A DNA stretch of 53,064 nt, from IMG/VR virus record IMGVR_UViG_3300009181_004240, positions 1 to 53,064 of that record. One strand, given 5' to 3'. The position numbers and the translations under genes are program-made. Shown piece by piece: positions 15,540 through 50,858 of the stretch. The notes under the pieces are model-generated. The model searched no databases and had not been told where the DNA came from. It was given only the letters and a program-made list of their open reading frames with translations. Each line of letters opens with the position of its first letter. The first letter of the stretch is position 1. This DNA comes from a virus.

Positions 15540-15544
15540 CATAT

Positions 15545-15879: not shown

Positions 15880-15953
15880 GGTCCTTTAACTCAGTTGGTT
15901 AGAGTAGCGCACTCATAATGCGAAAGTCCCAGGTTCAAGTCCTGGATGGGCCA
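15880..15953 (+). tRNA. tRNA-Ile2 or Met (CAT)
   Basis: Anticodon stem GCGCA/TGCGA around CTCATAA. The whole sequence resembles bacterial ileX-type tRNA (GGTCC acceptor, GGTTCAAGTCC T-arm), in which C34 is changed to lysidine to read AUA. Acceptor GGTCCTT/ATGGGCC has one mismatch. Confidence 0.85.
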
Positions 15954-15973
15954 CAAAATATATAAAATAAAGG

Positions 15974-27499: not shown

Positions 27500-27572
27500 T
27501 GTGCGGTGGAGAAGTTGGTATCTCGGCAGGCTCATAACCTGAAGATCGCTAGTTCGAGTCTAGCCCGCGCTA
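27500..27572 (+). tRNA. Isolated initiator-like tRNA-Met (CAT)
   Basis: Anticodon loop CTCATAA; D-arm GAGA/TCTC with GTTGG; T-arm GCTAGTTCGAGTCTAGC. The acceptor TGTGCGG/CCGCGCT has a mismatch at 1-72, the mark of initiator tRNAs, but the stem shows AGG/CCT in place of the full GGG/CCC. It lies 11.5 kb from the main block. Confidence 0.82.
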
Positions 27573-27578
27573 CATAGT

Positions 27579-35426: not shown

Positions 35427-35726
35427 ATGATACGATTAAAATCCATGTTAACGGAACAACAGGAAACACCAACGCAACTCATGTTGCAACGCCAAGCTAT
35501 AATGCAAGATGCGTTAGCCAAATTAACTGCCTTAGAACCAATGCGTGATTTTGATGTAGATGAAACGGTTTCATCTGTTGATAATGCGGTAGCAGCTGCA
35601 TACATTGCGTATTGTGGCAACATGCAATCGCATATGAAAACGTCTACCGAACCATTAATGGATCTTCCATGGGGAACTGAGATTGTTAACATGATTGCAC
35701 GAATCAAACAAGATGTTAATTATTAA
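35427..35726 (+). CDS. Small protein with capsid-targeting peptide (99 aa)
   Basis: Start ATG 35427 chosen because it gives MIRLKSMLTE, the shared N-terminal peptide. Predicted cleavage after E10. The mature part is helical (LMLQRQAIMQDALAKLTALE). Probably an internal head protein. Confidence 0.82.
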   Translation: MIRLKSMLTEQQETPTQLMLQRQAIMQDALAKLTALEPMRDFDVDETVSSVDNAVAAAYIAYCGNMQSHMKTSTEPLMDLPWGTEIVNMIARIKQDVNY

Positions 35727-35740
35727 CACGAGAACACAAC

Positions 35741-36514
35741 ATGATTAAATTAAAGACCCTGTTAATGGAGTGGCACGATACCGACCCGGCCCACGTAAAG
35801 TATTGGATCATGAAACATGTACCTGCTATAGCAGCGAAACTAGGTGAACAGATTGATAAGAAATTAGGTGGCGGAATGAACGGCGTTGCTTTTCTTCTTA
35901 AGAGTGGTAAGGTATTAAAGATTACTGGCGACAAACAAGAAGTCGCAGCTGCATCTAGATATCGTACTAAACTTAATGTTCCGCATCTCGTATCCGTATA
36001 TGATGTGCGCAAATTAGAAGGAGACATTGTTGATCCAACCTCACCTGACTATGCAACATTTAAAACTAGTTGGGATCGTAGTCGACAATTTTATGTTATT
36101 ATAATGGACTATGTAACTCCATTTGATAATCACGAACAACAAGTATGGCGAGAAATTAGTGACGATTATTTAAGTCCGCGTTTCAGTGATGAAATCACGC
36201 GTGAAGAATTAGAAAGCTTCATTGATGAACACCAAAATCTAACATTACCAGAAAGATGGATTGATACCATGATCACACAACGACAATCCGTATTAGCAGC
36301 GTTTCGACGAAACCAAGTATTCACACAAGAAGCACATGGAGAAAATATGGGTTGGAGTCGCCATGGGAAATTGGTACATTTTGATTGGTGGATGGTTGAT
36401 CAAACTCAAACGTCGGACCAATGGACCCGTTTCCAAGATAAACCTCGTCGTTTAAATAAGCCGATTCAATATGATGCATCGGGTATCGACACGCCTAATG
36501 ATCCGACCATGTAA
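35741..36514 (+). CDS. Kinase-like protein with capsid-targeting peptide
   Basis: 257 residues. N-terminus MIKLKTLLME is the shared targeting peptide. The rest resembles a small protein-kinase/aminoglycoside-kinase fold: glycine-loop GGGMNGVAF, the strand Lys in KVLKITG, hinge-like VIIMDYVTPF, and a catalytic-like EAHGENMGW followed by LVHFDWW. The usual catalytic Asp is replaced by Glu (E five residues before N), so activity is uncertain. Paralogue at 39.1 kb. Likely injected and acting on host proteins or small molecules (inference). Confidence 0.78.
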   Translation: MIKLKTLLMEWHDTDPAHVKYWIMKHVPAIAAKLGEQIDKKLGGGMNGVAFLLKSGKVLKITGDKQEVAAASRYRTKLNVPHLVSVYDVRKLEGDIVDPTSPDYATFKTSWDRSRQFYVIIMDYVTPFDNHEQQVWREISDDYLSPRFSDEITREELESFIDEHQNLTLPERWIDTMITQRQSVLAAFRRNQVFTQEAHGENMGWSRHGKLVHFDWWMVDQTQTSDQWTRFQDKPRRLNKPIQYDASGIDTPNDPTM

Positions 36515-36526
36515 CCGACACTGTGT

Positions 36527-36549
36527 AAAGGGCTTATTAGCCCTTTTTT
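36527..36549 (+). terminator. Terminator after kinase-like gene
   Basis: AAAGGGCT-TATT-AGCCCTTTTTT. Confidence 0.88.
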
Positions 36550-36569
36550 ACTGGACATAGGTTGCTGTA

Positions 36570-36598
36570 AGTACGGCCCTGCGCAGAAAGGGCGTACT
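36570..36598. other. Hairpin of unknown role
   Basis: AGTACGGCCCT pairs with AGGGCGTACT (one bulge). No T-run, so it is not a plain terminator. Confidence 0.5.
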
Positions 36599-36654
36599 AG
36601 CGTTCTTTATTTTAAAATTAATTTAATTTTTTATAAACTTTCCGCGGAAATCAT

Positions 36655-36685
36655 TTGGTATATTGGAATATTATTCTTATATTTA
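36655..36685 (+). promoter_or_regulatory. Class A promoter
   Basis: TTGG at 36655, 19 nt, TATATTTA at 36678, followed by AGTATAG as in class B. Confidence 0.75.
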
Positions 36686-36707
36686 AGTATAGATAAATGA
36701 TAAGGAT

Positions 36708-36965
36708 ATGAGTAAAGGTAGTAACGCAGCACAATTATCAACCGCGAGGCAACTTGCTTTGTTATATGGTTGGCCCGGTGGTTCGACCACAGGTGATCCT
36801 AGAAATGCAAAAACAGGTACATTCTCAGGATATTTTAGAGATGGCCATCTTGCTTGGCGTGGTAGGTTTGATGTAGGAATACAAGTTGGTTTATGGGAAT
36901 ATTATGTATATCCAATAAGAAATTCGGAACCAGAAATTATTAATGAGTTTTATTGTAATCTTTAA
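36708..36965 (+). CDS. MORN-like small protein (85 aa)
   Basis: The segment GYFRDGHLAWRGRFDVGIQ continuing VGLWEYY resembles one MORN-type repeat. Polar N-terminus. Unknown role. Confidence 0.75.
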   Translation: MSKGSNAAQLSTARQLALLYGWPGGSTTGDPRNAKTGTFSGYFRDGHLAWRGRFDVGIQVGLWEYYVYPIRNSEPEIINEFYCNL

Positions 36966-36975
36966 ATTTTAAATT

Positions 36976-37749
36976 ATGTTAGTTCGTTTGTTCAAAGATA
37001 TGCCGTTATTCGTATATGACACTATTAGCGAAGGATTCGTATCACAAAGTGCATGGGGCAATACACCAACCGGTATTCCAAATGATTATGTTATTCGTTA
37101 CTTAAAAAATAGATATACAAACAAAGAGCGTTTTATTGCTGGATTTGTAAATCCAATATTAAACTTAGTTAATGAATGTGCTGCTCCAGATCGTTTAGTT
37201 AAATTAGTAAATACACTGAATATGTTTGCTACGCAGTATGATTCGGTTAAGCCATGGTCATATGCAGAAGCATTCCAGATTGGAAGTTTAGATTTTAAAT
37301 CTATGGTATTCGGCAGTATCCGTGTTCCTGAAATGATTGCAGAATTAGGTCATACAAGAATTGCCACAGCAGGACGTCCTGTGAAACACAAACAATATTC
37401 TAAATCCGGAGAGTTTCTAGGATACAAAGAATATGATGTTATTTTTGAAACGCACCGTGTTGATGGATCCAAATTAGGATTGCGTGAATCTGTGTATGCA
37501 GTTAAGTGTTGGTGTACTACTACTAATAATGAACATTGGTTGTGGATAGACGAACAATACAAGTCAGATCCATTGGAGGCAATTGCTCATACATTTTTTA
37601 TACATGAAAATTTAATTCCACATATTAAAGAATTAAAACGTCAAGGCGATGTTTTATTAGTAGAATTAACTTCAGAGGTGGAACCACGTGGTAACATGGT
37701 GTCTTTAAATAAAGATCAATACTTTGAATTATTAACGGCACAAAGTTAA
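36976..37749 (+). CDS. Hypothetical protein (257 aa)
   Basis: Alpha/beta protein; includes GIPNDYVIRYLKNRYTNKER, VYAVKCWCTTTNNEHWLWID and TFFIHENLIPHIKELKRQG. No family recognised. Ten nt after the MORN-like gene, so co-transcribed. Confidence 0.82.
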   Translation: MLVRLFKDMPLFVYDTISEGFVSQSAWGNTPTGIPNDYVIRYLKNRYTNKERFIAGFVNPILNLVNECAAPDRLVKLVNTLNMFATQYDSVKPWSYAEAFQIGSLDFKSMVFGSIRVPEMIAELGHTRIATAGRPVKHKQYSKSGEFLGYKEYDVIFETHRVDGSKLGLRESVYAVKCWCTTTNNEHWLWIDEQYKSDPLEAIAHTFFIHENLIPHIKELKRQGDVLLVELTSEVEPRGNMVSLNKDQYFELLTAQS

Positions 37750-37757
37750 TAATTAGG

Positions 37758-37788
37758 TTGGTTAATTGAAAAAGTTTTATTATATTTA
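37758..37788 (+). promoter_or_regulatory. Class A promoter
   Basis: TTGG at 37758, 19 nt, TATATTTA at 37781; gene at 37814. Confidence 0.72.
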
Positions 37789-37813
37789 TTAAGTAATTTA
37801 AAATCCAAATCAT

Positions 37814-38044
37814 ATGCAAGTAGTTGTTTTAGAACCAAGCACAAACACACACCGTTTAGAATCAGAATCTGTTGAGGTAACAGACTTAGGACATGGTATC
37901 CTAAAAGTGAAAACTTCTAAACAAGGAGGTATCGTTACTCACGGTGAGCATGGTACATTAGTAACAGAATCTGAGAATGTTATTAAGTATGTACAGCAAG
38001 AGTTAAATCCGATTACAAAAAAGATGCAGAATGCATTTGATTAA
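37814..38044 (+). CDS. Hypothetical beta-rich protein (76 aa)
   Basis: VVVLEPSTNTHRLESESVEV, then GILKVKTSKQGGIVTHGEHG. Own promoter and own terminator. Unknown. Confidence 0.8.
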   Translation: MQVVVLEPSTNTHRLESESVEVTDLGHGILKVKTSKQGGIVTHGEHGTLVTESENVIKYVQQELNPITKKMQNAFD

Positions 38045-38064
38045 TTAGATTTAATCACATTATA

Positions 38065-38087
38065 AAAGCCCCACAAGGGCTTTTTTT
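38065..38087 (+). terminator. Terminator
   Basis: AAAGCCC-CACAA-GGGCTTTTTTT. Confidence 0.9.
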
Positions 38088-38122
38088 ACTGTTTGATATT
38101 TATATAAAAGGAACAGAATACG

Positions 38123-39097
38123 ATGATTAAACTTAAAAATATCCTAAGTGAAGGTTTTGCTTGGGAACGTAAAGAAGGTAAGGGGTTACCTACGATGGCT
38201 GAAGTTCAAGCAGAATATAATGCTAAACAATTAAAAGAATATTCAGGAGATATATTTGATGAGATCGCTGATGAGTTAGGGATTTCAGCTGATGCTTTTG
38301 ATAATGCTTTAAATTCTTCGAAGGCTGAGTTAGATATTATTGAAAAAATATATATGAGCGATAGTTATACACGCACAGAATCATTAAGCATGATTGCTGA
38401 TATGTTAGATATTGATATCAATGAAGCAGTTAGCCAAGAAGAAGCTGATAAGAGATGGAATGATCCTATTCAAATGGGAATGCGTAATATATCTAAACCT
38501 GCAACATCGAACTCTACAAAAGCTCCTAGCAATTTTTATCGTGAAAAATTAACAGCATTAAAAGCACAACGTAAACAAATTGAATTTGATATGGAACAAG
38601 AAGCTGAACCAGAAGGTGGGCCAATTGCTGAATATTATGGAGAAGCATTACAGAGTGTAGATGATCAAATTAATGCTATCATGCAAAAAATGGGTACGAA
38701 TGAATCTATCGAAGAAGCTCAAGAAGCTAGAGGCGAAGATGGTCGTACGGAAACTATTAGTGCAAAAAGAGCAGCTGCTGAATTAAAGCAATATATTAAA
38801 GGTAAACGTAGTGACGGTATGGGTGCATATACTTCTACTATATATGGTATTAATGATGCTGGTAAAAAAGTTAAAATAACATCACAAGATCAATTATCAA
38901 AATTTAAAACATTTGGTTTAACTGATAAAGATGAGCCAGCTAATGCTAATGAGAAGCCAGATTATATTGATGCTGATAATGATGGGAATGAGGATGAATC
39001 TATGAAAGATGCTTTTAAAGATAAAAACGAAAATATAAATGAATCATTTGTCGGCCGTTTGAAAAAGAATTTTATTGGCGGCGCTGTAAGAAAGTAA
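38123..39097 (+). CDS. Virion-type protein with capsid-targeting peptide (324 aa)
   Basis: N-terminus MIKLKNILSE then GFAWER. Mostly helical and acidic. An EF-hand-like calcium loop, DADNDGNEDE, occurs near residue 289. The C-terminal tail is basic (RLKKNFIGGAVRK). Further LxE/INE sites occur inside. Probably a packaged or scaffold-type protein. Confidence 0.82.
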   Translation: MIKLKNILSEGFAWERKEGKGLPTMAEVQAEYNAKQLKEYSGDIFDEIADELGISADAFDNALNSSKAELDIIEKIYMSDSYTRTESLSMIADMLDIDINEAVSQEEADKRWNDPIQMGMRNISKPATSNSTKAPSNFYREKLTALKAQRKQIEFDMEQEAEPEGGPIAEYYGEALQSVDDQINAIMQKMGTNESIEEAQEARGEDGRTETISAKRAAAELKQYIKGKRSDGMGAYTSTIYGINDAGKKVKITSQDQLSKFKTFGLTDKDEPANANEKPDYIDADNDGNEDESMKDAFKDKNENINESFVGRLKKNFIGGAVRK

Positions 39098-39099
39098 TT

Positions 39100-39795
39100 A
39101 TGATCAAGCTAGTTAATTTATTGCAGGAAGCATTATTACCAATTGATATGGTAAAGAAATTAGCATTGGAAATGGGTGAAACCGTAACAGATGTAATTAG
39201 CGGCGGCCAAAATGGTGTAGCGTACGCGACCGCATCAGGTAAAGTTGTTAAATTAACAGGCGATCCGGCAGAGGTTGCATTAGCTACGAGATTGCGTACA
39301 AAACGATTATACAAACACATTATTAATGTATATGAAGTACGACCTATAGAAAATTTAAATGAGAATTATATAATATTAATGGATCGAATTACACCGTTCA
39401 TTATCGGTGAAGAACAACAATGGTATAATATACGTAAACAGTATCTAAATCGAAAGAATTCAGATAAAGATTTCACAGAATTTATAGCAACACTACCAAA
39501 ACAATCAAAATATTACACCATCGATTCAAAATTTATTGAAAAAATAACACAACAACGAACTGGATTACTTAGAGATTTTTCTGAATTACGAATTATATGG
39601 GAAGAAGCACATGGTGGTAATATGGGTTGGAATCGACATGGTAACCTAGTACACTTTGATGCATGGCAAGTAGTACATCGTACTAAATTAGGTACATCTG
39701 ATTATTCTGAATTAGATTATGATGCGGCAAATGAAACTCCATATGCAAAAGGATTATCTAAACCATTACAATCTTTTAAAGATAGAAATAATTAA
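39100..39795 (+). CDS. Kinase-like protein with capsid-targeting peptide, paralogue
   Basis: 231 residues, two nt after the previous gene. N-terminus MIKLVNLLQE. Shares with the 35.7 kb gene the glycine loop GGQNGVAY, KVVKLTG, YIILMDRITPF, EEAHGGNMGW and LVHFDAW. Same Glu-for-Asp change at the catalytic position. The two differ in the middle, so duplication is not recent. Confidence 0.78.
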   Translation: MIKLVNLLQEALLPIDMVKKLALEMGETVTDVISGGQNGVAYATASGKVVKLTGDPAEVALATRLRTKRLYKHIINVYEVRPIENLNENYIILMDRITPFIIGEEQQWYNIRKQYLNRKNSDKDFTEFIATLPKQSKYYTIDSKFIEKITQQRTGLLRDFSELRIIWEEAHGGNMGWNRHGNLVHFDAWQVVHRTKLGTSDYSELDYDAANETPYAKGLSKPLQSFKDRNN

Positions 39796-39799
39796 TAGT

Positions 39800-39889
39800 A
39801 TGATACGTTTAAAAACATTGTTAGAAAATATAAATTTAAGTGTGATTTCGATCACACTTTTTTACTGTTCAAACTGTCGATACATTTAA
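39800..39889 (+). CDS. Orphan capsid-targeting peptide mini-gene (29 aa)
   Basis: Begins MIRLKTLLEN, the same peptide as its neighbours, but the frame then runs through a terminator hairpin and stops. It looks like a gene that lost its body, or a target-peptide cassette. Confidence 0.45.
   Translation: MIRLKTLLENINLSVISITLFYCSNCRYI
39838..39863 (+). terminator. Terminator
   Basis: AAGTGTGAT-TTCG-ATCACACTTTTTT, a very stable tetraloop hairpin. Confidence 0.9.
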
Positions 39890-39945
39890 TTACTAGTATA
39901 TTTATATATAAATGTTAAATATTTACAATACTGAAAGTCCCGGCA

Positions 39946-40569
39946 ATGGATTTAACAACAATATCGACAATAGCAGTTGCACTTATTACTGCAGTAATAG
40001 GACCTATAGTAGTAGAATGGGTACGTACTAAATTAAAGTCATCAACCGAAACACATACTACCGTTGGTGAGGCAGTAGAGTTAGGTATTATTGATGAAAA
40101 ATTAGATAGCATGATGGCGTATTTAAATTGCGATCGCATATGGATTGCTCAATTTCACAATGGAGGTCATTTTTATCCAACCGGTAAATCCATTCAGAAA
40201 TTTTCTATATTTTATGAAAAACTGTCTGCAGGAACTACATCACTACGAAACATGCTTCAAAATATTCCAGTTTCATTGTTTCCAAAGGCTTTGAATGAAA
40301 TTCATACCAACCAAGAATTGAGTATACACTCATTTGAACCTGGCAATGAATTTTATGGAATGGAATCTATTTCAATACCACTTAAAACAAAATCATTTTA
40401 TATGTATGGAGTATATAATTTAGAAGATCGTTTGATAGGTGTAATGGGAATTGCGTTTAATGGACAAGAACATAAGCTATCTGGAGATGAATTGGATTAT
40501 ATTGCTACTAAAAATGGTGTTATTGGTACTTTATTAACAAATTATCTATATGCGCCTGGAAAAAAATAA
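39946..40569 (+). CDS. Membrane-anchored GAF-like protein (207 aa)
   Basis: N-terminal transmembrane helix (ISTIAVALITAVIGPIVVEW). The rest resembles a GAF sensor domain: CDRIWIAQFHNGGHF, then IPLKTKSFYMYGVYNLEDRL and a final helix. Similar GAF-type proteins occur in large marine phages. Ligand unknown. Confidence 0.78.
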   Translation: MDLTTISTIAVALITAVIGPIVVEWVRTKLKSSTETHTTVGEAVELGIIDEKLDSMMAYLNCDRIWIAQFHNGGHFYPTGKSIQKFSIFYEKLSAGTTSLRNMLQNIPVSLFPKALNEIHTNQELSIHSFEPGNEFYGMESISIPLKTKSFYMYGVYNLEDRLIGVMGIAFNGQEHKLSGDELDYIATKNGVIGTLLTNYLYAPGKK

Positions 40570-40615
40570 TATGCGTTTATATATATAATAAAATCATCAT
40601 ATTATTAGGAACACA

Positions 40616-40711
40616 ATGGAATACACTACAGAAGATTACGATATCCTTTTCGGAGTCATGTTTGACGAAGTTGCTGAACAATTGGATATCGAAGATGCTG
40701 TGTTAGTATAA
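40616..40711 (+). CDS. Small acidic protein (31 aa)
   Basis: MEYTTEDYDILFGVMFDEVA and on; ATG in an ACACAATG context. Short; kept because of acidic, helical composition and a downstream terminator. Confidence 0.5.
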   Translation: MEYTTEDYDILFGVMFDEVAEQLDIEDAVLV

Positions 40712-40747
40712 GATATTCGACTGCTACCTTAGTCGTTTTAGTTAAAG

Positions 40748-40774
40748 AACCTGAGCTTTTGCTTGGGTTTTTTT
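40748..40774 (+). terminator. Terminator
   Basis: AACCTGAGC-TTTT-GCTTGGGTT followed by a T-run. Confidence 0.88.
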
Positions 40775-40815
40775 GTGGACGAATATTTATAATAAAGAAG
40801 TTAATAAGGATATTT

Positions 40816-40965
40816 ATGGCTGCAGCAGTTAAAAAACAAGGATCTAGCAAATTGCATATCGGTAAATCAAAAGTAAAAAGACCAAGTGTGCATTCTAAAA
40901 CTAAAAATAGCAAAAATAAATCTAGTAAAAATTATTCTAAACAATATGTGAGCCAAGGAAGATGA
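40816..40965 (+). CDS. Small basic Lys/Ser-rich protein (49 aa)
   Basis: ATG 40816 gives MAAAVKKQGSSKLHIGKSKV and a KSKNSKN-rich tail. Histone-like composition, so possibly DNA-associated in the head. Overlaps the next gene by 4 nt. Confidence 0.72.
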   Translation: MAAAVKKQGSSKLHIGKSKVKRPSVHSKTKNSKNKSSKNYSKQYVSQGR

Positions 40966-42284
40966 TACGATTAACCTCATTATTATTAGAAGATGAACAG
41001 CGTGTTTATAAAGCATTGTTTATAGGAGATATACAAACCGTTTCGCCAACAAGTTTTGCAAAAAAGGTATTACGTTCTAGATATCTTAACGGCGAAATAA
41101 ATGGTCGAGTAAATGCATCGATTACAGATTTAAATAACATACTTCAAACTAATATGTTAAAAGAATATGATGTAGTAACGATATTTCCTGGTTTAATTAA
41201 AAATACAAAAAATGCAGATGTTATTATACAGACACTAGCATCAATGTTTTCGTTAGTTAAAGAATATAATTGCATATTAGTTGCTATAACGAATACCACA
41301 TCAGAATTTGTTGATAAACCTGAATTATATGAATTCAATGAATCTATATCAGAATGGATTCAATCTCAAGATATTGCCGATGTTGTTATCGATACAACGG
41401 AATTCAGTAAATTAGATTTTATACGACATGGTACCATGTTAGACGAAGATGCACAGAATACAATAGCACAACAATGGATGCAAAATGTATTACCATTATT
41501 ACAATCGACTGATGATTTAGATGTTGTTGATACTGATGGTATGATTGATGCTAATGTAGAACAAATAAAAGATCTACAAGTTAAATTGTTATCATTAGGC
41601 TATTTAGAAACTAGTGACGAAGTTACTGGGAAATTGGATAGTAACACAAAAATTGCATTATCGCAATTTCAACGAGATCGAGATATAAACCCAACTGGTA
41701 CTATAGATAAAACTACAATTAGTAAATTAGATACGGTTGCTGATACAGATGATTCTAATTTAGCTAACCTAGTTCCTAAGAAAGTAAAACGTTCTAGAAC
41801 TATTAGTCATAATGATATTGCAACTGTTAATACTATAATAGATTTCTTTGTAGATAAAGGATTATCTGAAACCGGTGCTGCAGGTATTGCTGGTAATTTA
41901 TTCATCGAATCCGGATTTAAAACAGATAACCCAGGTGATCATGGTACATCAAATGGATTAGCACAATGGCATAATGAACGTTGGTGGGGTCCACGTGGAT
42001 TTGAAGCTTGGTGTACAAATAAAGGATTAGATCCATGGTCTGTTAATGGACAATTGGAATTTTTATGGTGGGAGTTGAGTACTAATCATAGCGCATTAGC
42101 CGAGAAACTTAAAAATGAAGATATTACGCCAGAAGATGCTGCATATTTATTTGCAAAACTTTATGAACGACCGGCACATATTTCTTCTGAACGAAAAACG
42201 AAAGCAGCTGAATTTTATGAGGAATATTCAAAATCTTCATTAAATCCGTTAAATACATTGGATGCGTTAAATCCGTTAAATTAA
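40962..42284 (+). CDS. SGNH-like/peptidoglycan-binding/lysozyme fusion with capsid-targeting peptide
   Basis: 440 residues. N-terminus MIRLTSLLLE. Residues about 13-180 resemble an SGNH-type hydrolase (YKALFIGDIQTVSP near the start), although the usual nucleophile Ser is not obvious. About 185-255 is a peptidoglycan-binding repeat (IKDLQVKLLSLGYLETSDEV, IALSQFQRDRDINPTGTIDK). About 285-430 matches phage tail-lysozyme proteins (GLSETGAAGIAGNLFIESGF, NGLAQWHNERWWG). A packaged wall-cutting enzyme could help DNA entry. Ends with NPLN repeats. Confidence 0.85.
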   Translation: MIRLTSLLLEDEQRVYKALFIGDIQTVSPTSFAKKVLRSRYLNGEINGRVNASITDLNNILQTNMLKEYDVVTIFPGLIKNTKNADVIIQTLASMFSLVKEYNCILVAITNTTSEFVDKPELYEFNESISEWIQSQDIADVVIDTTEFSKLDFIRHGTMLDEDAQNTIAQQWMQNVLPLLQSTDDLDVVDTDGMIDANVEQIKDLQVKLLSLGYLETSDEVTGKLDSNTKIALSQFQRDRDINPTGTIDKTTISKLDTVADTDDSNLANLVPKKVKRSRTISHNDIATVNTIIDFFVDKGLSETGAAGIAGNLFIESGFKTDNPGDHGTSNGLAQWHNERWWGPRGFEAWCTNKGLDPWSVNGQLEFLWWELSTNHSALAEKLKNEDITPEDAAYLFAKLYERPAHISSERKTKAAEFYEEYSKSSLNPLNTLDALNPLN

Positions 42285-42319
42285 ATTAAATAGATATATA
42301 TAGTAAAAGAAACGATATT

Positions 42320-42850
42320 ATGAAAATATTCGATATTAATAACCCGACACATGTTCGTATCCTTAAGGAAGAAATTAGCAGAGCTAAACGAATTATTGCT
42401 GAAACATATTCAGCTGATGCAGTATGGGAAAAAATGACAGACAACGATCGCAAAACTGAGTTATATTCAGCAAAGGCAATGAACCCGGATGAATTAGTTA
42501 ATGCAAAATGGGATGCAATTCCTGCTGATACACAAGATCAGATAGATTTAACAAAATATAGTTTAGCAAATATGCCAGGTAGCTCTGGTAATATGTCTGG
42601 ATTGCGTGGGATACAAAAAATTGCAAATGAAGATGCGAATGTAAAAACTTTGGTTTCAAAATACTTAAAACAAGTAGGTCGTTCTTTATCTGATATTACT
42701 GTTGCACAATCATATGAGTTACAAACAAAGATTGGTAAATTAAGACAACAAACTAGTTCTCCAACTAAATCTAGTATCGAACTAAATCCTAGAGATTTTG
42801 GTGGAGGTCCGTCTCAAAGTCCATTCAATAAAGGATATACAGGTGACTAA
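42320..42850 (+). CDS. Virion-type protein (176 aa)
   Basis: N-terminus has LKEEISRAKRIIAE, which includes LxE-type cleavage sites but not the common MIKL peptide. Helical with a Pro/Gly/Ser-rich end. Shares its stop with the next start (TAATG). Confidence 0.78.
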   Translation: MKIFDINNPTHVRILKEEISRAKRIIAETYSADAVWEKMTDNDRKTELYSAKAMNPDELVNAKWDAIPADTQDQIDLTKYSLANMPGSSGNMSGLRGIQKIANEDANVKTLVSKYLKQVGRSLSDITVAQSYELQTKIGKLRQQTSSPTKSSIELNPRDFGGGPSQSPFNKGYTGD

Positions 42851-43041
42851 TGAATAAACCTAATTTTATACATGTTATTGTAATACATGAAGATGGTACT
42901 ACCATGTCTAGATTTATTAATACAGCACATATAATGCAGGTTTATGAAAAAAATGGAAATGTATATATCGAATTGACAGAATTTACCACATACAAAGTAT
43001 CAACCCCAAACGTACACGTATTTATGGATAAATTTGTATAA
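42850..43041 (+). CDS. Hypothetical protein (63 aa)
   Basis: Beta-rich (FIHVIVIHEDGTTMSRFINT). Coupled to the previous gene. Unknown. Confidence 0.75.
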   Translation: MNKPNFIHVIVIHEDGTTMSRFINTAHIMQVYEKNGNVYIELTEFTTYKVSTPNVHVFMDKFV

Positions 43042-43077
43042 TTTGATATTTATATATATAAATAAATAAAGGTTAAT

Positions 43078-43263
43078 ATGACATCACAAGAAGTATTTGA
43101 AGTAATGGAACAGTTATGGGCAGATTTTAAAGAAAATCACGAACGTTTCAGAGATAAAAAAGTTAAAAAAGCTGGAGTTATAGCACGTAAGTCAATTAAT
43201 GAATTAAAAAAATTATCAACAACTTATCGTTCAATTAATTTAGCTGAATCAAAAGAGATATGA
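43078..43263 (+). CDS. Small helical protein (61 aa)
   Basis: Charged helix (VMEQLWADFKENHERFRDKK). HU-like size, but no match recognised. ATGA-type overlap with the next gene. Confidence 0.75.
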   Translation: MTSQEVFEVMEQLWADFKENHERFRDKKVKKAGVIARKSINELKKLSTTYRSINLAESKEI

Positions 43264-44081
43264 TTGAAAAACGTCGACATATTATTGAAAACACATTGAA
43301 AGAAATGATATTGGAACAGGCACCTAGCGACAGTAATACTGCCGCGGGTGCTACTTCTGATGATACATTATTTACACCTGCAGAAGAAAAATTCTTAGGT
43401 AAATTTGATGCGTATGGAACAACCCATTTAGGAATTATTTATTCTACATCTGATATTGGTATTCGTGAGTTTATCGGAAGAAGTGGTGCTGAGTTAGATT
43501 TAACACCTGAAACATTGTTATCATTAGTACGTCGTAACGTTGTTAAACTTGTACCATATACTGGGTTCGGTCAAAACGATGATTATACAATAGAATTGCA
43601 ACTTAGTTTAAATGATGTTAAAGGTTTAGGTGCTGATGACAAAGAAGCATTAAAATCTAAAGAATCTAGCGGAGGTGGTGCTATGCCAGCAGAACCATCG
43701 ATGCCAGAAGCACCGATAGAACCAGCACCAGATCTTGCATGGGTTGTAAAATATGGTGATGTTTTAAAAGAATCGGTTACAATTGCAAAGCAATTAATCA
43801 GTGAAAAGAAAAAAACAAAAGAAACTAGCAATATTAAAATATATTCAGACCAATCTAGAATATTAAAACGTCTTCCTAAACACTTTGTTACTCAATTAAA
43901 AAAGATTATTGAGTTATTAGATAAAAAAACTAATAACGTAAGTGAAAAAGAACGTTTAATTGCTGACATTTTAGATAATTTACAAATTAATTTTAATTTA
44001 TCTCCAAAACATATTACAAAATCATATGAATTTCACAAAAGTCAGAAAAGATTACAAAAATTCATTGATAAAGATAAATAA
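43260..44081 (+). CDS. Virion-type protein with cleavage-site-like N-terminus (273 aa)
   Basis: N-terminal helix ends LKEMILE then QAPSDS, consistent with cleavage after LxE. A Pro-rich linker (PAEPSMPEAPIEPAPD) divides two domains. Basic C-terminal end. Probably structural. Confidence 0.78.
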   Translation: MIEKRRHIIENTLKEMILEQAPSDSNTAAGATSDDTLFTPAEEKFLGKFDAYGTTHLGIIYSTSDIGIREFIGRSGAELDLTPETLLSLVRRNVVKLVPYTGFGQNDDYTIELQLSLNDVKGLGADDKEALKSKESSGGGAMPAEPSMPEAPIEPAPDLAWVVKYGDVLKESVTIAKQLISEKKKTKETSNIKIYSDQSRILKRLPKHFVTQLKKIIELLDKKTNNVSEKERLIADILDNLQINFNLSPKHITKSYEFHKSQKRLQKFIDKDK

Positions 44082-44085
44082 ATAA

Positions 44086-44116
44086 TTTGAATTACGCTTT
44101 TTATTTCATATAATAG
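44086..44116 (+). promoter_or_regulatory. Class A promoter (TTTG form)
   Basis: TTTG at 44086, 19 nt, TATAATAG at 44109; gene at 44154. Closest to the textbook Bacteroidota promoter. Confidence 0.72.
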
Positions 44117-44153
44117 TGGTAATAAAAATAAATGTTATACTAAATTTTTAAAA

Positions 44154-44363
44154 ATGAGTTATTACACAGCAAAAGTTCAACTAACAGACGAAGTTGACAC
44201 GCCGAAAGGCCCAAAAATCAAAAAAACAACAGAGACATACCTTGTCGAGGCAATGTCGGTTACAGAAGCAGAAGCAAAAGTTATCGAAGATTTTAAAGGA
44301 TATACTTTTGACTTCGAAGTTAAATCAGTTACAGCAAGTAAAATCGTTAAAATTTTAGAATAA
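44154..44363 (+). CDS. Conserved phage protein (69 aa)
   Basis: YTAKVQLTDEVDTPKGPKIK, then TETYLVEAMSVTEAEAKVIE. This matches a small DUF-type protein frequent in Bacteroidota phages (from memory). Shares a base with the next gene. Confidence 0.82.
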   Translation: MSYYTAKVQLTDEVDTPKGPKIKKTTETYLVEAMSVTEAEAKVIEDFKGYTFDFEVKSVTASKIVKILE

Positions 44364-44638
44364 TGGGTTATAAAGCCGGAGATACTGTGATTGTTACTCA
44401 AGAAGATGTACATCACGTAGGAGTTGTATTAGATAAATACACACTCAGCAAAGCAACTGTATATGATGTTTTATTAGAAAACAGAACAGCATTGATAATG
44501 TTAAATACAGCATTTTCAAAGAAAACTTTTATTAATAAAGGTTTAACAGCAAAGTTATGTGACACAGACCTCATTCAGACAACTATTCCTTATAAGGAGA
44601 TGTTATTGAATGATCGGTTACCAATTTGCCACGCATAA
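44363..44638 (+). CDS. Hypothetical beta-rich protein (91 aa)
   Basis: Begins MGYKAGDTVIVTQEDVHHVG, an SH3-like barrel opening. Unknown. Confidence 0.78.
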   Translation: MGYKAGDTVIVTQEDVHHVGVVLDKYTLSKATVYDVLLENRTALIMLNTAFSKKTFINKGLTAKLCDTDLIQTTIPYKEMLLNDRLPICHA

Positions 44639-44747
44639 TATTGAATATACGAACATCTTAGTATATATGCAAATTTTATAATAAAGTTTATTTTAATTTG
44701 CGAATAATACATTAAATGAACGTATTTACCTCCAAAATTTAAGTTAA

Positions 44748-45389
44748 ATGACTTCAAATGAATTAGAATCTAAAATCACAGGTATATTATCAAATACATC
44801 TGAATATGATGTTTTAGCAACAGATCACCCAGATTATATGTTATATAGTCCACACTCAGTTGGATATAATACAATTTCTGAACAAAATACCTTATTTTTA
44901 CATGTTTTATCCGGCTTTAATCCTAATCAGTCTATATTAGATATAGGTTGTGGACGAGCCGATATGGCGCACTTTATTAGCGAATTTTACGGTAAATTGA
45001 ATGCGTATACAGGTATAGATCATAATCCTATCATGGCAGATCTAGCAAAACAGAAATATGGCTATGACGTAATGATAGGTGCATTCGAAACAACGGAATT
45101 AAATCAACATGATTGGGTTGTTGCATCCGGTGTATTTACTCAACGTCGTTGTGAAACCGAAGAACAAGATTTTAACAAATTATTAGATGATATTGAATTA
45201 ATGTATAACATTGCTAACTCAGCAGTTTCATTTAATTTGTTATCTCCAATAAACACACACCACCACGAAGGGTTCTTTTATGTTCACCCGGGACTAATAT
45301 TGGATATGTTAATTGAACGATACGGATATGTATCAGTTAAAAATAACTATTCGAAAGATGTATATACAATAACAATTTATAAATTTTAA
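44748..45389 (+). CDS. SAM-dependent methyltransferase
   Basis: 213 residues. Motif I ILDIGCGRADMAHFI, acidic motif YTGIDHNPIM, and motif IV-like DWVVASGVF. Class I Rossmann methyltransferase. Substrate unknown; no DNA-methylase NPPY/DPPY motif is seen, so small molecule, RNA or protein is more likely. Confidence 0.88.
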   Translation: MTSNELESKITGILSNTSEYDVLATDHPDYMLYSPHSVGYNTISEQNTLFLHVLSGFNPNQSILDIGCGRADMAHFISEFYGKLNAYTGIDHNPIMADLAKQKYGYDVMIGAFETTELNQHDWVVASGVFTQRRCETEEQDFNKLLDDIELMYNIANSAVSFNLLSPINTHHHEGFFYVHPGLILDMLIERYGYVSVKNNYSKDVYTITIYKF

Positions 45390-45392
45390 ACC

Positions 45393-45785
45393 ATGATTAA
45401 AAGTATCAATCATCCATGGGCCGTTACTGATAAATTCAGAGAACGTTATGGGAACACTTGGGCTGATATGGATTTTATTTTTGAAGATAAGATCTCTACA
45501 GACAATTTTAAAACAGATCCAATGGCTGTATTAATCGGCACATTGCATATCGAAGGTAAACAGTTACCAATGCGATATAAAGACTTAATTTCATATAGTA
45601 AATCATTAGATACATTTACTAACAACATGTATGCTGAAAACGTAGGTAAACAAGATTTAATGCTAGTAGCTGTTAAAGGAACTGAGTTTACTTTGAGAAA
45701 ACATGAAGTTGCAAAATTATATGATACTATTTCAGATGCATTGGATTCTTCTATGCGAGCATACGAGTTAGGATTATATTTATAA
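45393..45785 (+). CDS. Hypothetical protein (130 aa)
   Basis: Three nt after the methyltransferase. Contains NHPWAVTDKFRERYGNTWAD. Unknown. Confidence 0.8.
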   Translation: MIKSINHPWAVTDKFRERYGNTWADMDFIFEDKISTDNFKTDPMAVLIGTLHIEGKQLPMRYKDLISYSKSLDTFTNNMYAENVGKQDLMLVAVKGTEFTLRKHEVAKLYDTISDALDSSMRAYELGLYL

Positions 45786-45800
45786 TAAAATAAGGTACCT

Positions 45801-45959
45801 ATGCAAACATATATTTATTACAGCCGTAATGATACTAAATGTGAAATCATAGGACGTGTATTGGCAACGAGTTTGGACGGGGCACGTGAATGTATAATGC
45901 AAATGAAACGTTTATCTGCAGCTAATGTAGATGAATTATTTGTAATAAAAAAGGTCTAA
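45801..45959 (+). CDS. Hypothetical protein (52 aa)
   Basis: MQTYIYYSRNDTKCEIIGRV, then a helix. Fifteen nt after the previous gene and 2 nt before the next. Typical small phage protein, unknown role. Confidence 0.7.
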   Translation: MQTYIYYSRNDTKCEIIGRVLATSLDGARECIMQMKRLSAANVDELFVIKKV

Positions 45960-45961
45960 AC

Positions 45962-46399
45962 ATGAACACAGTATTTGACAGCATTAATGTTAACTATTCA
46001 GAGTATAGTTACTTTAATCAATTAGCTAAATCAGAACAATTGCATTATTTTTTTGATTTATATGAATCCGGAGTTGCTCGTTTAAATGGAATTGATTTAC
46101 AAACATTTTTTAGTGCAATTAAAGATTCATTGAATGTTGATGAACCAATATCTAATACCGATAATGATGAATATCCATTAGATGTTGATAGAGTTGATGT
46201 GATGATTGATGATCATCATATTATGATTGAATCAAATAGTTTAAAGGCTGTTAGATATATGATTAATAAGTTTATAGAATCTGGTTATATTCTTAGACGT
46301 GATAATGATACTGAAAAGTATTTTCGTAAAGACAAATTAACTAAATACATGAGAATATTTCACATCGTAGATCAAACATCCTCAATTTGTTTAAATTAA
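45962..46399 (+). CDS. Hypothetical protein (145 aa)
   Basis: Helical, acidic. SEQLHYFFDLYESGVARLNG and ALKAVRYMI-like segments. Unknown. Confidence 0.8.
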   Translation: MNTVFDSINVNYSEYSYFNQLAKSEQLHYFFDLYESGVARLNGIDLQTFFSAIKDSLNVDEPISNTDNDEYPLDVDRVDVMIDDHHIMIESNSLKAVRYMINKFIESGYILRRDNDTEKYFRKDKLTKYMRIFHIVDQTSSICLN

Positions 46400-46405
46400 T
46401 AAGTT

Positions 46406-46981
46406 ATGGCAAAAAGACAAGTTGACGATAAAATACAAGCAAAATTTGAAAAACCGCAATTCTCAATCGAGGATGCGGTTTATTTTTCTTTTTTAGGACA
46501 AAAACAATACGGATATGTTACACAAATTACGCCAGTTAATTGGGGTGTTAAATACACAGTTCAATCGTCTAATGGACTTCGTTACCCGTGCGGTATCATC
46601 ATCGAAGGCATCAAGACCACATATGACGCAGGAGTCATTTACTTCGAAGAATCTAAAGAACTCGGATCTAATGAATGTCGACGAAGATACGAAGCCGGAA
46701 GAAATTGCAAATCGATTAATGCAGTTCCTAGCAACGCCAGAAGGACAGAAATTGAAAGCACAGACAGTGATCAAACAAGCAAACCAAATGTTGATACCTC
46801 TGTTGGAAAAGTGGATGCAAACACCAAACGAAGAAATAGCACAACGAATGTTGCTAAGCCTAGCACTGATGGAGTGTCAACGAGCAATAGAAAAAAACGA
46901 AGCCCTGTTAAAAACGCTGAACTGACAAATGCAATCCAGCGTCAAAAAGATTTCCTCAATGGGTTTATTAATCGAGATTAA
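46406..46981 (+). CDS. Hypothetical protein with SH3-like N-terminus and disordered tail (191 aa)
   Basis: The first 85 residues look like a compact beta domain (EDAVYFSFLGQKQYGYVTQI). From about residue 90 on, the sequence is K/S/T/N-rich and low in complexity, ending NAIQRQKDFLNGFINRD. That tail overlaps a second plausible gene in the +1 frame, so part of it may be constrained by the other frame. Confidence 0.78.
   Translation: MAKRQVDDKIQAKFEKPQFSIEDAVYFSFLGQKQYGYVTQITPVNWGVKYTVQSSNGLRYPCGIIIEGIKTTYDAGVIYFEESKELGSNECRRRYEAGRNCKSINAVPSNARRTEIESTDSDQTSKPNVDTSVGKVDANTKRRNSTTNVAKPSTDGVSTSNRKKRSPVKNAELTNAIQRQKDFLNGFINRD
46671..46925 (+). CDS. Overlapping +1-frame gene (84 aa)
   Basis: ATG 46671, fully inside the 191-aa gene. 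The product is a well-composed acidic helical protein: MNVDEDTKPEEIANRLMQFL, then LIPLLEKWMQTPNEEIAQRM. It has better protein-like composition than the host frame's tail. It could also be reached by a +1 frameshift from the upstream frame. Confidence 0.55.
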   Translation: MNVDEDTKPEEIANRLMQFLATPEGQKLKAQTVIKQANQMLIPLLEKWMQTPNEEIAQRMLLSLALMECQRAIEKNEALLKTLN

Positions 46982-48127
46982 TTAGATACTATGTTTTTGA
47001 GCATACCAACAGAATTTTTGTCTTAAGTATGTATTTACATCAGCTTTGTTTTTTGTTATAGTTTGTATAGCACTCCATTTTTTATATGGTGGAAATGAAT
47101 TAGTTGTATTAGCTATATTTAAAATATCATCAGATACAGCTGGAGTATTGCTTATAATTTTGTTAATACGGTCTGCAACATACGTAACAGCTTCTGGTTT
47201 ATAACTCAGCCCAAACATAGGTTGGCCTTTTGATGCCAACGCAGTTCGTAAATTTATTGACATATCTTTAAGTTCTGGGAATTTAGACCAATATCTGTGT
47301 GACCACGATGATGCTTGTTTAAACCAGTCTTTAAATTTCTCAATATCATTGATTGTATTAAGTTTTACAAATTGCATTTGTCCAGTTGCCGCTTTTTTTA
47401 TTATTGGCATCCATGTCTCGGCTATTTTTTTAGATGTTGGATTACCAGCATATCCAGCTGCTATCATATATTCGTTTAACGTAATTCCATCTTTATAATA
47501 TTCTAGTCTCGCTTGACTTTCGAATTGTTTCGCTAGCATATTCCAATCAACAGTACCAATTTCATCTATTATTACTCGACCTTCTGCTCGAGTTAGCCCG
47601 GTTCTTTTTATCATTTCGTCGTCTGTTTTTGTTTTAGCTAAAGAATTTTCTATTTTCGTAGCATTGTTTTCTATACCCATTGCTAGCTTGTCCCAATTAA
47701 AAAACTTTGCAGCTCCACCTGCTAGCGATGAAGTAATACCATCTTTAATCATCCAACGTACAGCATTACCTTTAGTAATACCGCGGTTCTTTGCAACGAT
47801 ACCAACGAGTTTATTCAGTGCTTTACCAGCTAGTGCTGCTAATAGTAGTGTCCCTACTGTGAGCTTTGTCCACTCAAAAATATCGTTGTAATGAGCAATT
47901 TTTGCTGGGTCTATTTCTGATATATCACTATTCGCAACAACTGTCTTATCTTTTGCTGCTACGGCTTTTTTCTCTGCTGCGGCTTTCTCCCTTGCTGCTT
48001 TCTCCCTTGCTGATTTCTCCCTTGCTGCTTTTTGTTGAGGAGTTTCTTTAGGTGTTAAAGCACCTCCTTGTTCGTTTAATATACGATCACAAATTTGTAG
48101 TTTTAGTGATTTTGTTTTAGTATTCAT
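46982..48127 (-). CDS. Minus-strand virion-type membrane protein (381 aa)
   Basis: N-terminus LKLQICDRILNE then QGGALTP, a variant of the targeting peptide with cleavage after LNE. Next come tandem AREKAAREKA repeats, a hydrophobic helix (LTVGTLLLAALAGKAL) and a folded C-terminal part ending CWYAQKHSI. Converges with the plus-strand gene at 46.4 kb. Probably packaged and membrane-active; inference. Confidence 0.8.
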   Translation of the reverse strand: MNTKTKSLKLQICDRILNEQGGALTPKETPQQKAAREKSAREKAAREKAAAEKKAVAAKDKTVVANSDISEIDPAKIAHYNDIFEWTKLTVGTLLLAALAGKALNKLVGIVAKNRGITKGNAVRWMIKDGITSSLAGGAAKFFNWDKLAMGIENNATKIENSLAKTKTDDEMIKRTGLTRAEGRVIIDEIGTVDWNMLAKQFESQARLEYYKDGITLNEYMIAAGYAGNPTSKKIAETWMPIIKKAATGQMQFVKLNTINDIEKFKDWFKQASSWSHRYWSKFPELKDMSINLRTALASKGQPMFGLSYKPEAVTYVADRINKIISNTPAVSDDILNIANTTNSFPPYKKWSAIQTITKNKADVNTYLRQKFCWYAQKHSI

Positions 48128-48128
48128 A

Positions 48129-49376
48129 TTATTTTTTCTTTTTGTTTTGTGGATTCATTGGTTCTAAATTGTTGAACATATCATCTGGATTTGACGGATT
48201 TTGTTTTCTGTATTGTTTTGCTTTTTCTATATTTTTTTTAGCTTTTGGAATAGCATATAATTTATCAAACAATGTATGATATTGTTCTACACCGGCATCA
48301 AATGCAACTAGAGGTATTGCAAGTTTAGTTACTAATGCAGAAGTTTTAATACCACCATCCGCAATTTTAAACATTATATTAGCACCTCGTTGACCTAATT
48401 GTTGTCTAATTCGATCACGAACTATGCTATTAGTAACCTGATTAGCTAATGATGCTTTAACATAATTATCTATTCCATTTTTCAATGCATAGTTATATTT
48501 CCATACATCTTTAATTGCAAGACGTTCTATTGCAGATAAAACCGGATCTCCACTCAAAGCTAATTTACGCCCCAATGCTGCCATACCACGTTCACCTAAC
48601 CGAGCAACTCCTGGCATTTTAGCTATTAAATTTAATCCTTTTCCGACAACTGGCATTAATGCAAATAATGATGATAATCCGGCTTCACGCATATTTCCTT
48701 GTGAATATTGGTCTGCGGCATCTAATGCAAGAATCCCCGCAGATACTCCCCAACCTACAACTGGTATAAAAGCAGTAGCAAAGCCCATTACTTGTAGATA
48801 TGTATGTCTGAATTCTGGATCTTCCATGGCTTTAGCAGCAACACCCATTCCGGTACCACTGAAATCCATTTTAGACCAATCGAGTTCACCGGGAGCACTC
48901 TGTGTTGGTTCAGTTGGGTATGTTTTTTTATATTTGTTTAAATAGTCATTAAAAATCTTTAAAGAGTTTTCACTAGCTTTAATACTTTTTAAATGTTTTA
49001 TTATAATATCCAGATAATATATTGTTAATTTAGCTCTATGCCAACGATCTTTACTAGCTGGTCCTACATCAATGAAACTAGTAACATATTGTGCAATACC
49101 TTTACCACCTGTTAGTTTTTGTAATTCTAACGTTACTTGATTATATTGGTTTGAATCGGCAATAGATTTTATTGTTTGAACTATACCATATTCTTCATCC
49201 CAAATAAATCCTTTTGCATCATATATTTTTTTAGCAATTTTTTTAGCAAGTTGTATATCAGCAGTTTGTTTATTAGATTTATTTACCATATCTCCGGTTA
49301 CTTGCATCAGTTGTTTTTGTGCATCATCAGGAGACCATTGTTCGTTTAATAAATCTTTTAATTTAATATTAGCCAT
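48129..49376 (-). CDS. Minus-strand virion-type protein with capsid-targeting peptide (415 aa)
   Basis: Start 49376 is chosen over the upstream in-frame ATG because it yields MANIKLKDLLNE then QWSPDD. Central hydrophobic segments (YLQVMGFATAFIPVVGWGVS, LSSLFALMPVVGKGLNLIA) resemble the transmembrane-helix pair of phage injected or pore-like proteins. Two nt before the 381-aa gene, so the two form one minus-strand operon. C-terminus is basic. Confidence 0.82.
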   Translation of the reverse strand: MANIKLKDLLNEQWSPDDAQKQLMQVTGDMVNKSNKQTADIQLAKKIAKKIYDAKGFIWDEEYGIVQTIKSIADSNQYNQVTLELQKLTGGKGIAQYVTSFIDVGPASKDRWHRAKLTIYYLDIIIKHLKSIKASENSLKIFNDYLNKYKKTYPTEPTQSAPGELDWSKMDFSGTGMGVAAKAMEDPEFRHTYLQVMGFATAFIPVVGWGVSAGILALDAADQYSQGNMREAGLSSLFALMPVVGKGLNLIAKMPGVARLGERGMAALGRKLALSGDPVLSAIERLAIKDVWKYNYALKNGIDNYVKASLANQVTNSIVRDRIRQQLGQRGANIMFKIADGGIKTSALVTKLAIPLVAFDAGVEQYHTLFDKLYAIPKAKKNIEKAKQYRKQNPSNPDDMFNNLEPMNPQNKKKK

Positions 49377-49429
49377 GTATTCATTCCAATTTATAATAAA
49401 TATTGTTGTATAATATTTCACCGGAAAGG

Positions 49430-49460
49430 TTGGATAATTGAATTATAATTCTTATATTTA
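49430..49460 (+). promoter_or_regulatory. Class A promoter
   Basis: TTGG at 49430, 19 nt, TATATTTA at 49453; gene at 49506. Confidence 0.75.
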
Positions 49461-49505
49461 TAGTATAAGAGATTTAAATAATTAACTAATTAAAATTTAA
49501 GAGAT

Positions 49506-49994
49506 ATGAAAAAGTTAGCAGTAGTTTTAGCCGTAGTAGTAAGTGGGTTTGTAAATGCACAGGAATTAGAATCCGATATAGCAAAGGATGTACATGAATT
49601 AATTGGTTGGGCAAATACAACTAAATCTATCAAAACTGGAGATTATGATGTGAATTTAATGAAAGGATTAGTAAAAACAATTTATTCTGATCCGACAACA
49701 AGATATAAATTTGCACAACTTAATCCTAAAATTGGTGAAATGGAAATTGTTAGTAATTGCGATTATAAAACAATTGATTATAAAACATGGTGTACAAAAT
49801 ATGTAAAAACACAAGATACATCTAAGTTTACATATATATATGAAATATTTCACGATGATGCAAATCCAGCTGATACCTTTAATGAATTTATGAAAGCATA
49901 TGATAAAAATTCAGGAGATGGATATTTTATCATGATTATATATGTCGATGGTTGTTTACGTGGAATTATAGATTCTACAATTGGTTGTGAATAA
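49506..49994 (+). CDS. Secreted protein (162 aa)
   Basis: Typical Bacteroidota Sec signal MKKLAVVLAVVVSGFVNAQE with cleavage after NAQ-type site. The mature part has four Cys (NCDYK, TWCTK, DGCLR, IGCE) that could form disulfides. Periplasmic or outer; unknown role. Confidence 0.82.
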   Translation: MKKLAVVLAVVVSGFVNAQELESDIAKDVHELIGWANTTKSIKTGDYDVNLMKGLVKTIYSDPTTRYKFAQLNPKIGEMEIVSNCDYKTIDYKTWCTKYVKTQDTSKFTYIYEIFHDDANPADTFNEFMKAYDKNSGDGYFIMIIYVDGCLRGIIDSTIGCE

Positions 49995-50013
49995 ACTTAA
50001 TATATTTAATGTT

Positions 50014-50055
50014 AAAAACTAGTAAGATATTTTATACTTTATCTTACTAGTTTTT
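50014..50055. terminator. Bidirectional terminator
   Basis: A perfect 16-bp stem, AAAAACTAGTAAGATA with its complement, between convergent genes. Confidence 0.92.
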
Positions 50056-50081
50056 AAAAATTATAATTATAATTTATATAT

Positions 50082-50756
50082 TTAACTTTTACCACCTCTA
50101 CTTATATAAGTAGCAACATTTTTATTAAATACTGCTAACTTCATATCCGTCGTAGGATCGCCAGCAACTGGAATTGGTGCTGTATTAGTTAATGTACATA
50201 ATTTAAACGTTTTAATTAAATTGTTATATTGTTGTGTATATAATGCACCCGCTTCTACCATAATATTATTTTTAGCAGCTAAGCATAGTTTTGCAAATAA
50301 TTGAGCAATTCCATTTTCATCTTTAAGATATGCCTCAAGTTGAATTGCGCCGGGTTTACTAATCAATCTATTTTCTAGTGTAAAAATAGCTTGTTTTAAT
50401 GGTGATGTAATTATTCCGTTCGCAGTATCATATTCGCCGATATTACCAATTACTAGATTATACGAACCAAGTCTAGATACAACAGCACCTGAGTTATTAT
50501 CTACCGCATATAATATCGGGCCAGCAGGTACCGGCACATTTGCTTTAGTATTTATAGTTATAAATTTTGTAGTTGGATCTGTAACATCTGTTAGTGTAGT
50601 TGTTGCACCTTTTGCAACGCCTGGTAACGCTAACATAGATTTAACACCATTTAAACCTTCTGTTTGTTCAGCTAATTTTTGTAATTTTTTCTTCGAAGCT
50701 TCAGATAAATTCTTTGATCCAAAACGAAGCATATTTTCTGCTAATGTGTTTTTCAT
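50082..50756 (-). CDS. Minus-strand virion-type protein (224 aa)
   Basis: N-terminus MKNTLAENMLRFGSKNLSE then AS, with LxE-type cleavage sites. The mature part is Thr/Ala-rich and beta-like (TTTLTDVTDPTTKFITINTK). I recall similar openings in T4-like Bacteroidota phage structural proteins, but the exact role is unknown. Confidence 0.78.
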   Translation of the reverse strand: MKNTLAENMLRFGSKNLSEASKKKLQKLAEQTEGLNGVKSMLALPGVAKGATTTLTDVTDPTTKFITINTKANVPVPAGPILYAVDNNSGAVVSRLGSYNLVIGNIGEYDTANGIITSPLKQAIFTLENRLISKPGAIQLEAYLKDENGIAQLFAKLCLAAKNNIMVEAGALYTQQYNNLIKTFKLCTLTNTAPIPVAGDPTTDMKLAVFNKNVATYISRGGKS

Positions 50757-50816: not shown

Positions 50817-50847
50817 TAGGTTTTGTGGATTTAATTTCTTATTATAG
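50817..50847 (+). promoter_or_regulatory. Promoter of uvsE (TAGG form)
   Basis: TAGG at 50817, 19 nt, TATTATAG at 50840. It decides the start of the next gene. Confidence 0.68.
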
Positions 50848-50858
50848 TGAAAAAAGAT

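Follow-up and report, generated by a model that had tools for sequence, protein, structure and literature searches.

A MIKLK-like N-terminal leader on unrelated proteins of uncultured T4-like phages as a candidate capsid-targeting propeptide

T4-like phages carry internal proteins that have no homology to one another except for an N-terminal leader, and those reported for the T-even phages number at least ten, few of them with known targets (PMC12373910). For packing of T4 IPIII, its first 10 residues are enough. Within this peptide, residues 4 and 7 are involved in targeting and residues 8 and 10 in processing, and the prohead protease gp21 cleaves after L/I-X-E (PMC9026906). The T4 vertex protein gp24 also loses ten N-terminal residues (PMC9958956); in the T4 sequence these are MAKINELLRE. 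Other phages use comparable strategies. In phiKZ and SPN3US, a protease related to gp21 cuts many head proteins after a short Glu-terminated motif, and several of the cleaved proteins are ejected, but the propeptides are mostly longer than 100 residues and are cut after A-X-E or S/A-X-E (PMC5694885; PMC10052503). In phage P1, the N-terminal 30 residues of DarB direct the protein into the capsid (PMC9024508); P1 is an unrelated phage, and the likeness is at the level of description.

The locus described here resembles the capsid-targeting sequence (CTS) of T4 IPI, IPII, IPIII, and Alt (PMC9026906, PMC12373910) in having a leader of about 10 residues on unrelated proteins, with hydrophobic residues at positions 4, 7, and 8, Glu at position 10, and the L/I-X-E motif, and a protease of the same S77 family is encoded by relatives of the phage. 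It differs in the leader itself, which is MKTYQEF in T4 and MIKLK-like here, in how many genes of one genome are tagged (about ten or more, compared with IPI-III and Alt in T4), in a composite second type of leader, and in its cargo classes. Among T4 leaders, that of gp24 is the closest in form, with ten residues ending LLRE, although gp24 is a shell protein and not cargo. The mechanism is already known from the T4 CTS; what is new is the composite leader together with the classes of cargo. A literature search for the leader strings found nothing, which is not proof of absence.

The window analyzed spans an entire IMG/VR virus record (53,064 bases) and represents a fragment rather than a complete genome. 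Ten proteins in one block carry a leader or a variant N terminus:

35427-35726, plus strand: tagged protein of 99 aa, leader MIRLKSMLTE then QQ
35741-36514, plus strand: tagged kinase-like protein A, leader MIKLKTLLME, paralog of the 39100 product, weak kinase-fold matches
38123-39097, plus strand: tagged protein, leader MIKLKNILSE then GFAWERKEGKGLPT, conserved in the clade
39100-39795, plus strand: tagged kinase-like protein B, leader MIKLVNLLQE, paralog of the 35741 product
40962-42284, plus strand: tagged wall-degrading enzyme, leader MIRLTSLLLE, PG_binding_1 and Phage_lysozyme2 domains (Pfam)
42320-42850, plus strand: clade-conserved protein, N-terminal site RIIAE28 then TYSAD (variant propeptide)
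43260-44081, plus strand: clade-conserved protein, leader ending TLKEMILE19 then Q
46982-48127, minus strand: protein with a hydrophobic segment, leader ending DRILNE19 then Q, as read from the sequence
48129-49376, minus strand: tagged protein with the hydrophobic stretch FIPVVGWGVSAGILALDAA, leader MANIKLKDLLNE then Q, start ATG at 49376
50082-50756, minus strand: type-B tagged protein, leader MKNTLAENMLRFGSKNLSEASKKKLQKLAE then Q, N terminus common to 23 IMG/VR loci

The initial annotation of this DNA had named six leaders of the form MI[KR]L..(L/I/M)L.E, and all six are present, five on the plus strand and one on the minus strand; a GTG at 49421 is merely an upstream in-frame start of the ORF that begins at 49376. 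The six proteins had been called otherwise unrelated. This description is accurate for five families, but the 35741 and 39100 products are paralogs of about 40% identity, so the six leaders represent five unrelated families. Variants ending ILNE, MILE, or LSE had also been noted, and variant N termini ending in (L/I)-x-E are found on four further proteins of the block, with candidate sites at IAE28 (42320), ILE19 (43260), LNE19 (46982), and LAE7, LSE19, and LAE30 (50082). Judged by sequence alone, L/I-x-E is present at the leader end in all ten proteins, although relatives of the 35741 type may stop one residue earlier (LLE). Other genes of the block have no leader, for example 36708, 37814, and 39946.

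The leader is a feature of gene starts. The internal Met codons of the same genes provide a null, against which the strict motif occurs at 5 of 86 called gene starts and 0 of 216 internal Met codons in the window (p=0.0017). The corresponding counts are 6/84 and 0/393 in the relative G003 and 6/212 and 0/879 in G006, the longest relative. A matrix trained on five relatives, with the window left out, gives five of the six leader starts the top ranks in the window, above every internal Met; the gene caller used does not call a gene from the sixth, 35427. Two window starts unrelated to the leaders, 28457 and 21659, also score above the matrix null. Conservation is at the level of the peptide and not of the DNA. 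Mean pairwise DNA identity is 54% within the leader, 30% upstream, and 27% downstream, and synonymous codons vary. Duplication of the leader as DNA was ruled out because the codons differ and the flanks are unrelated.

The positions conserved in the leader (hydrophobic 4, 7, and 8 and Glu10) are those mapped in T4 IPIII. Applied to the 248 gene starts of T4, this 4-7-8-10 pattern selects exactly two internal proteins and gp24; it occurs at 4/86 starts in the window compared with 5/1060 starts in control viral loci (p=0.003). The clade-trained matrix ranks gp24 fourth in T4 and misses the internal proteins, so the T4 and MIKLK leaders are alike in pattern and not in sequence. In phage PA5oct the pattern is not enriched. 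The best matrix start of that phage (155221), which belongs to a virion protein, and several of its high scorers carry an 'ESI-MS/MS' structural annotation, a distant form of support for location in the virion, and one high scorer is a ClpA homologue, surely by chance.

Evidence for a prohead protease comes from relatives of the phage. The search for a gp21-like enzyme, suggested in the initial annotation, detects neither a protease nor a head gene within the 53-kb window, and the window is therefore tied to gp21 solely via relatives; Peptidase_S77 is encoded in the collinear relatives G003-G006. Six IMG/VR contigs, G001-G006, share the block, with overlapping content in G003 and G004. Homologues of window genes number 41/86 in G001 and 33/86 in G006 and are collinear in inverted order. 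The collinear relatives encode gp20, gp21, gp22, and gp23, and G006 (169 kb) and G005 (140 kb) contain a T4-type cluster of terminase, portal, protease, gp22-like scaffold, and gp23. In G006 the protease has a Peptidase_S77 match at 6e-32, and homologues of the protease of Flavobacterium phage immuto are present in G003-G007 with E values of 4e-62 or better. By capsid protein, immuto and Microcystis phage Mel-JY01 are the nearest isolates (both 55%), and each has a gp21-type protease and MI.L leaders. A search for isolates with the head-cluster and small-protein families of the survey described below found only these two and an uncultured phage.

The two isolates have further N-terminal sequences of their own. 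A third leader type, MENFDLKKFLVENKLTxNSK(L/I)LxE, is present on four immuto proteins (L001-L003), and other immuto proteins begin with MKKSxLxxLIKEE-like sequences. In Mel-JY01, three tagged genes lie in tandem at 60276-62718 (L125 2277-4719) and share a VWH(L/V)T motif; they encode two full-length tagged proteins (60276 and 62056) and a 60-aa copy. By eye the motif recalls ADP-ribosyltransferases (cf. T4 Alt), with no match in Pfam, and is only a lead. The window itself contains a phage-encoded GroEL (4746-6362) that shares 82% identity with its counterparts in G001 and G006 and is related to that of immuto, and a protein at 50847-51878 that resembles by eye a UV endonuclease-type TIM barrel and is 72-76% identical in five relatives. 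It also contains an array of 22 tRNAs at 13095-15954 and one more at 27500-27573 (23 in the window); the tRNA at 15468-15540 has the anticodon TCA, would read UGA, and is a possible selenocysteine or suppressor tRNA.

The leader is swapped between unrelated proteins. Across the window and eight relatives, BLAST of the mature parts sorts 58 tagged proteins into 29 families. In the reverse search, using the mature part alone, the homologues recovered bear the leader in 2/2 cases for the kinase-like proteins, in 6/6 for the wall enzyme, and in most of the 48129 family.

A survey of viral contigs for DNA encoding MIKLK.(L/I)L.E extends these observations to at least 120 loci with at least 143 matches. 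Among the tagged matches listed, 126/143 (88%) begin an ORF of 60 aa or more, compared with 17/103 (17%) for a permuted pattern with comparable fixed bases run against the whole collection (p=2e-31). The 135 tagged ORFs among the matches listed form at least 81 families at E 1e-3, a count that may be too high because distant homologues get split. A gp21-like (S77) protease is encoded in 30/120 of the tagged loci listed and 2/103 control loci (p=1.8e-7). In the protease-bearing loci listed, 31/31 tagged ORFs lie on the protease strand, 14/31 within 600 nt of the protease and 22/31 within 1.5 kb. Long contigs display the same linkage, with S77 in 11/20 tagged and 3/20 control contigs (p=0.009); the 9/20 long tagged contigs in which S77 was not seen are probably fragments. 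Nine tagged contigs contain gp23 and S77 together. The exceptions are G028, with gp23 only, and G015 and G023, with S77 only, and in these the missing gene could lie past the contig edge. The motif scan of gene starts proposed in the initial annotation gives enrichment at starts and, in environmental contigs, linkage to S77.

Cargo classes in the survey, assigned by domain match, include RimK-type ATP-grasp (1e-32), Nudix, zeta/AAA_33, RNase_T (DEDD nuclease), HD, and M23. One match to ADPrib_exo_Tox (2.8e-6) is not tied to a particular member. Together with the kinase-like proteins and cell-wall hydrolases, the RimK-type, zeta/AAA, Nudix, DEDD nuclease, and HD proteins would be new classes of cargo.

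A second form of leader is composite. The 50082 protein shares its first 30-37 residues, and not its remainder, with the 23 IMG/VR loci. The 35 non-redundant leaders of this type B share EN(M/L)(L/R)RFGxKNL, and some consist of MIKLKNILAE followed by NMRRFGTKNL, that is, both leader types joined. A further L-x-E lies no more than 20 residues past KNL in 27/35 type-B leaders, compared with a background of 20% (p=5e-12), and most of the remaining leaders have L-x-E directly at KNL. This arrangement of sites suggests that the type-B leader is processed by stepwise cleavage. A tblastn search of isolate phages with the 31-aa type-B leader gave no match.

The tagged proteins of the window are diverse, and for most of them Pfam and PHROGs return no family. 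The initial annotation had placed a lysozyme among the cargo, and for the wall-degrading enzyme at 40962 this holds at the domain level, with Phage_lysozyme2 (PF18013, E=2.7e-27) accompanied by PG_binding_1. Its N-terminal part is homologous to GDSL domains of relatives, and its homologues contain GDSL or M23 domains.

The 35741 and 39100 products are tentatively kinase-like. Every listed Foldseek match of a weak model (pLDDT 55, TM ~0.25) has a kinase-like fold, and a β-3-like Lys60 and Asp215 are retained in an alignment of three sequences. The catalytic Asp expected five residues before the catalytic-loop Asn is absent, with Glu (E197, in EAHGxNMGW) at this position in 3/3 aligned sequences. 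The pair matches no Pfam family, a kinase profile run against PDB sequences gives E values of only ~0.4-0.8, and a scan of viral contigs for kinase gave no match. Homologues of the 35741 product are present in G001 (leader MIKLKTLLEQ) and G005 (MIRLKDLLQE).

Other members of the block differ in how widely they are conserved. The 38123 product has homologues in G001, G002, G003, G005, and G006, and homologues of the 48129 product carry the leaders MIQLKSLFNE and MIRLKQILTE; an AF2 model of the latter protein, the putative pore-like cargo of the initial annotation, is unusable (pLDDT 44). Searches with the mature parts of the 35427 and 46982 proteins found no homologue. In the 42320 family, the ILxE/IIAE-Y site is retained in relatives that keep the N terminus, and in the 43260 family nearly all of 14 homologues have the hydrophobic-x-E site. 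The 43260 product is 48-61% identical across the clade and belongs to no known family; together with 42320 and the short genes 42850 and 43078, it forms a block conserved in nearly all relatives (window 42320-44081).

Taken together, the presence of S77 in relatives, the enrichment at starts, the linkage to S77, and the match to the T4 IPIII positions support the proposal of the initial annotation that these leaders are T4-like capsid-targeting peptides cut after (L/I)xE; the support is strong but indirect, and they are very probably T4-type capsid-targeting propeptides. No virion proteomics for this clade was found, and we therefore infer packaging, cleavage, injection, and the role of each cargo. 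In the proposed mechanism, the N-terminal peptide, through its hydrophobic residues 4, 7, and 8, would dock the protein within the scaffold core as the prohead assembles, and the gp21-like S77 protease would then cut after (L/I)-x-E near residue 10. The mature protein would remain in the head with the DNA, and most cargo would be ejected into the host upon infection. In type B, the 10-mer would be fused to NM(L/R)RFGxKNL and further L-x-E sites and be cleaved stepwise. Cargo would vary between phages because any gene that gains a leader becomes packaged. Besides the two kinase-like paralogs and the wall-degrading enzyme, the cargo of the window would include a protein that has a membrane-like stretch and several proteins of no assigned family.

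Some tagged proteins may belong to the prohead core rather than to injected cargo. That the tagged proteins are mainly core or scaffold components, packaged and cleaved like T4 gp67 and gp68 but not injected as effectors, is unlikely. Several tagged families do directly adjoin gp21, and 42320 and 43260 are conserved clade-wide, as structural genes are. However, most of the families are rare and vary from phage to phage, and enzymes (RimK-type, Nudix, zeta/AAA, exonuclease, HD) are numerous among them, which fits delivery better than building. The 40962 enzyme could belong to the tail, given that Phage_lysozyme2 is a 'tail lysozyme' domain. This domain, the similarity of the enzyme to phi29 morphogenesis protein 1, and the short amphipathic nature of the leader would suit a different signal, for example one for tail or baseplate assembly or for membrane attachment. 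On the other hand, the leader is linked to the head protease and has the gp21 cut motif at its end, and the T4 proteins that match the pattern are head proteins, making a signal of this other kind improbable.

It is hardly credible that the leaders are alike by chance or through shared ancestry of all the proteins. The motif is short, its residues are common ones, and 35741 and 39100 are indeed paralogs. Nevertheless, the comparison of starts with internal Met codons and the permuted-pattern control oppose chance, at least 81 families have no detectable similarity in their mature parts, and the leader is retained in homologues found without using it. Both chance and shared ancestry of all cargo were rejected on these grounds.

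With capsid targeting as the preferred reading, a broader proposal seems somewhat better than even: uncultured T4-like phages, as a very large group, may employ a modular head-import tag to load exchangeable enzymes that modify the host (kinase-like, RimK-type, zeta/AAA, possible ADP-ribosyltransferase, Nudix, nucleases, and wall hydrolases), such that the injected set could be read from N termini alone, and the composite NM(L/R)RFGxKNL leader may constitute a second docking element that has not been described before and is cleaved stepwise. The proteins that phages inject alongside their DNA are mostly unknown. If the leader does mark proteins for packing, candidate injected proteins of phages that cannot be grown can be listed by a sequence scan. 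Among the 81 or more families are classes of enzyme whose targets at the onset of infection could be ribosomes, RNA, nucleotides, or the cell wall, and the cargo injected by environmental T4-like phages would thereby become a question directly testable by virion mass spectrometry.
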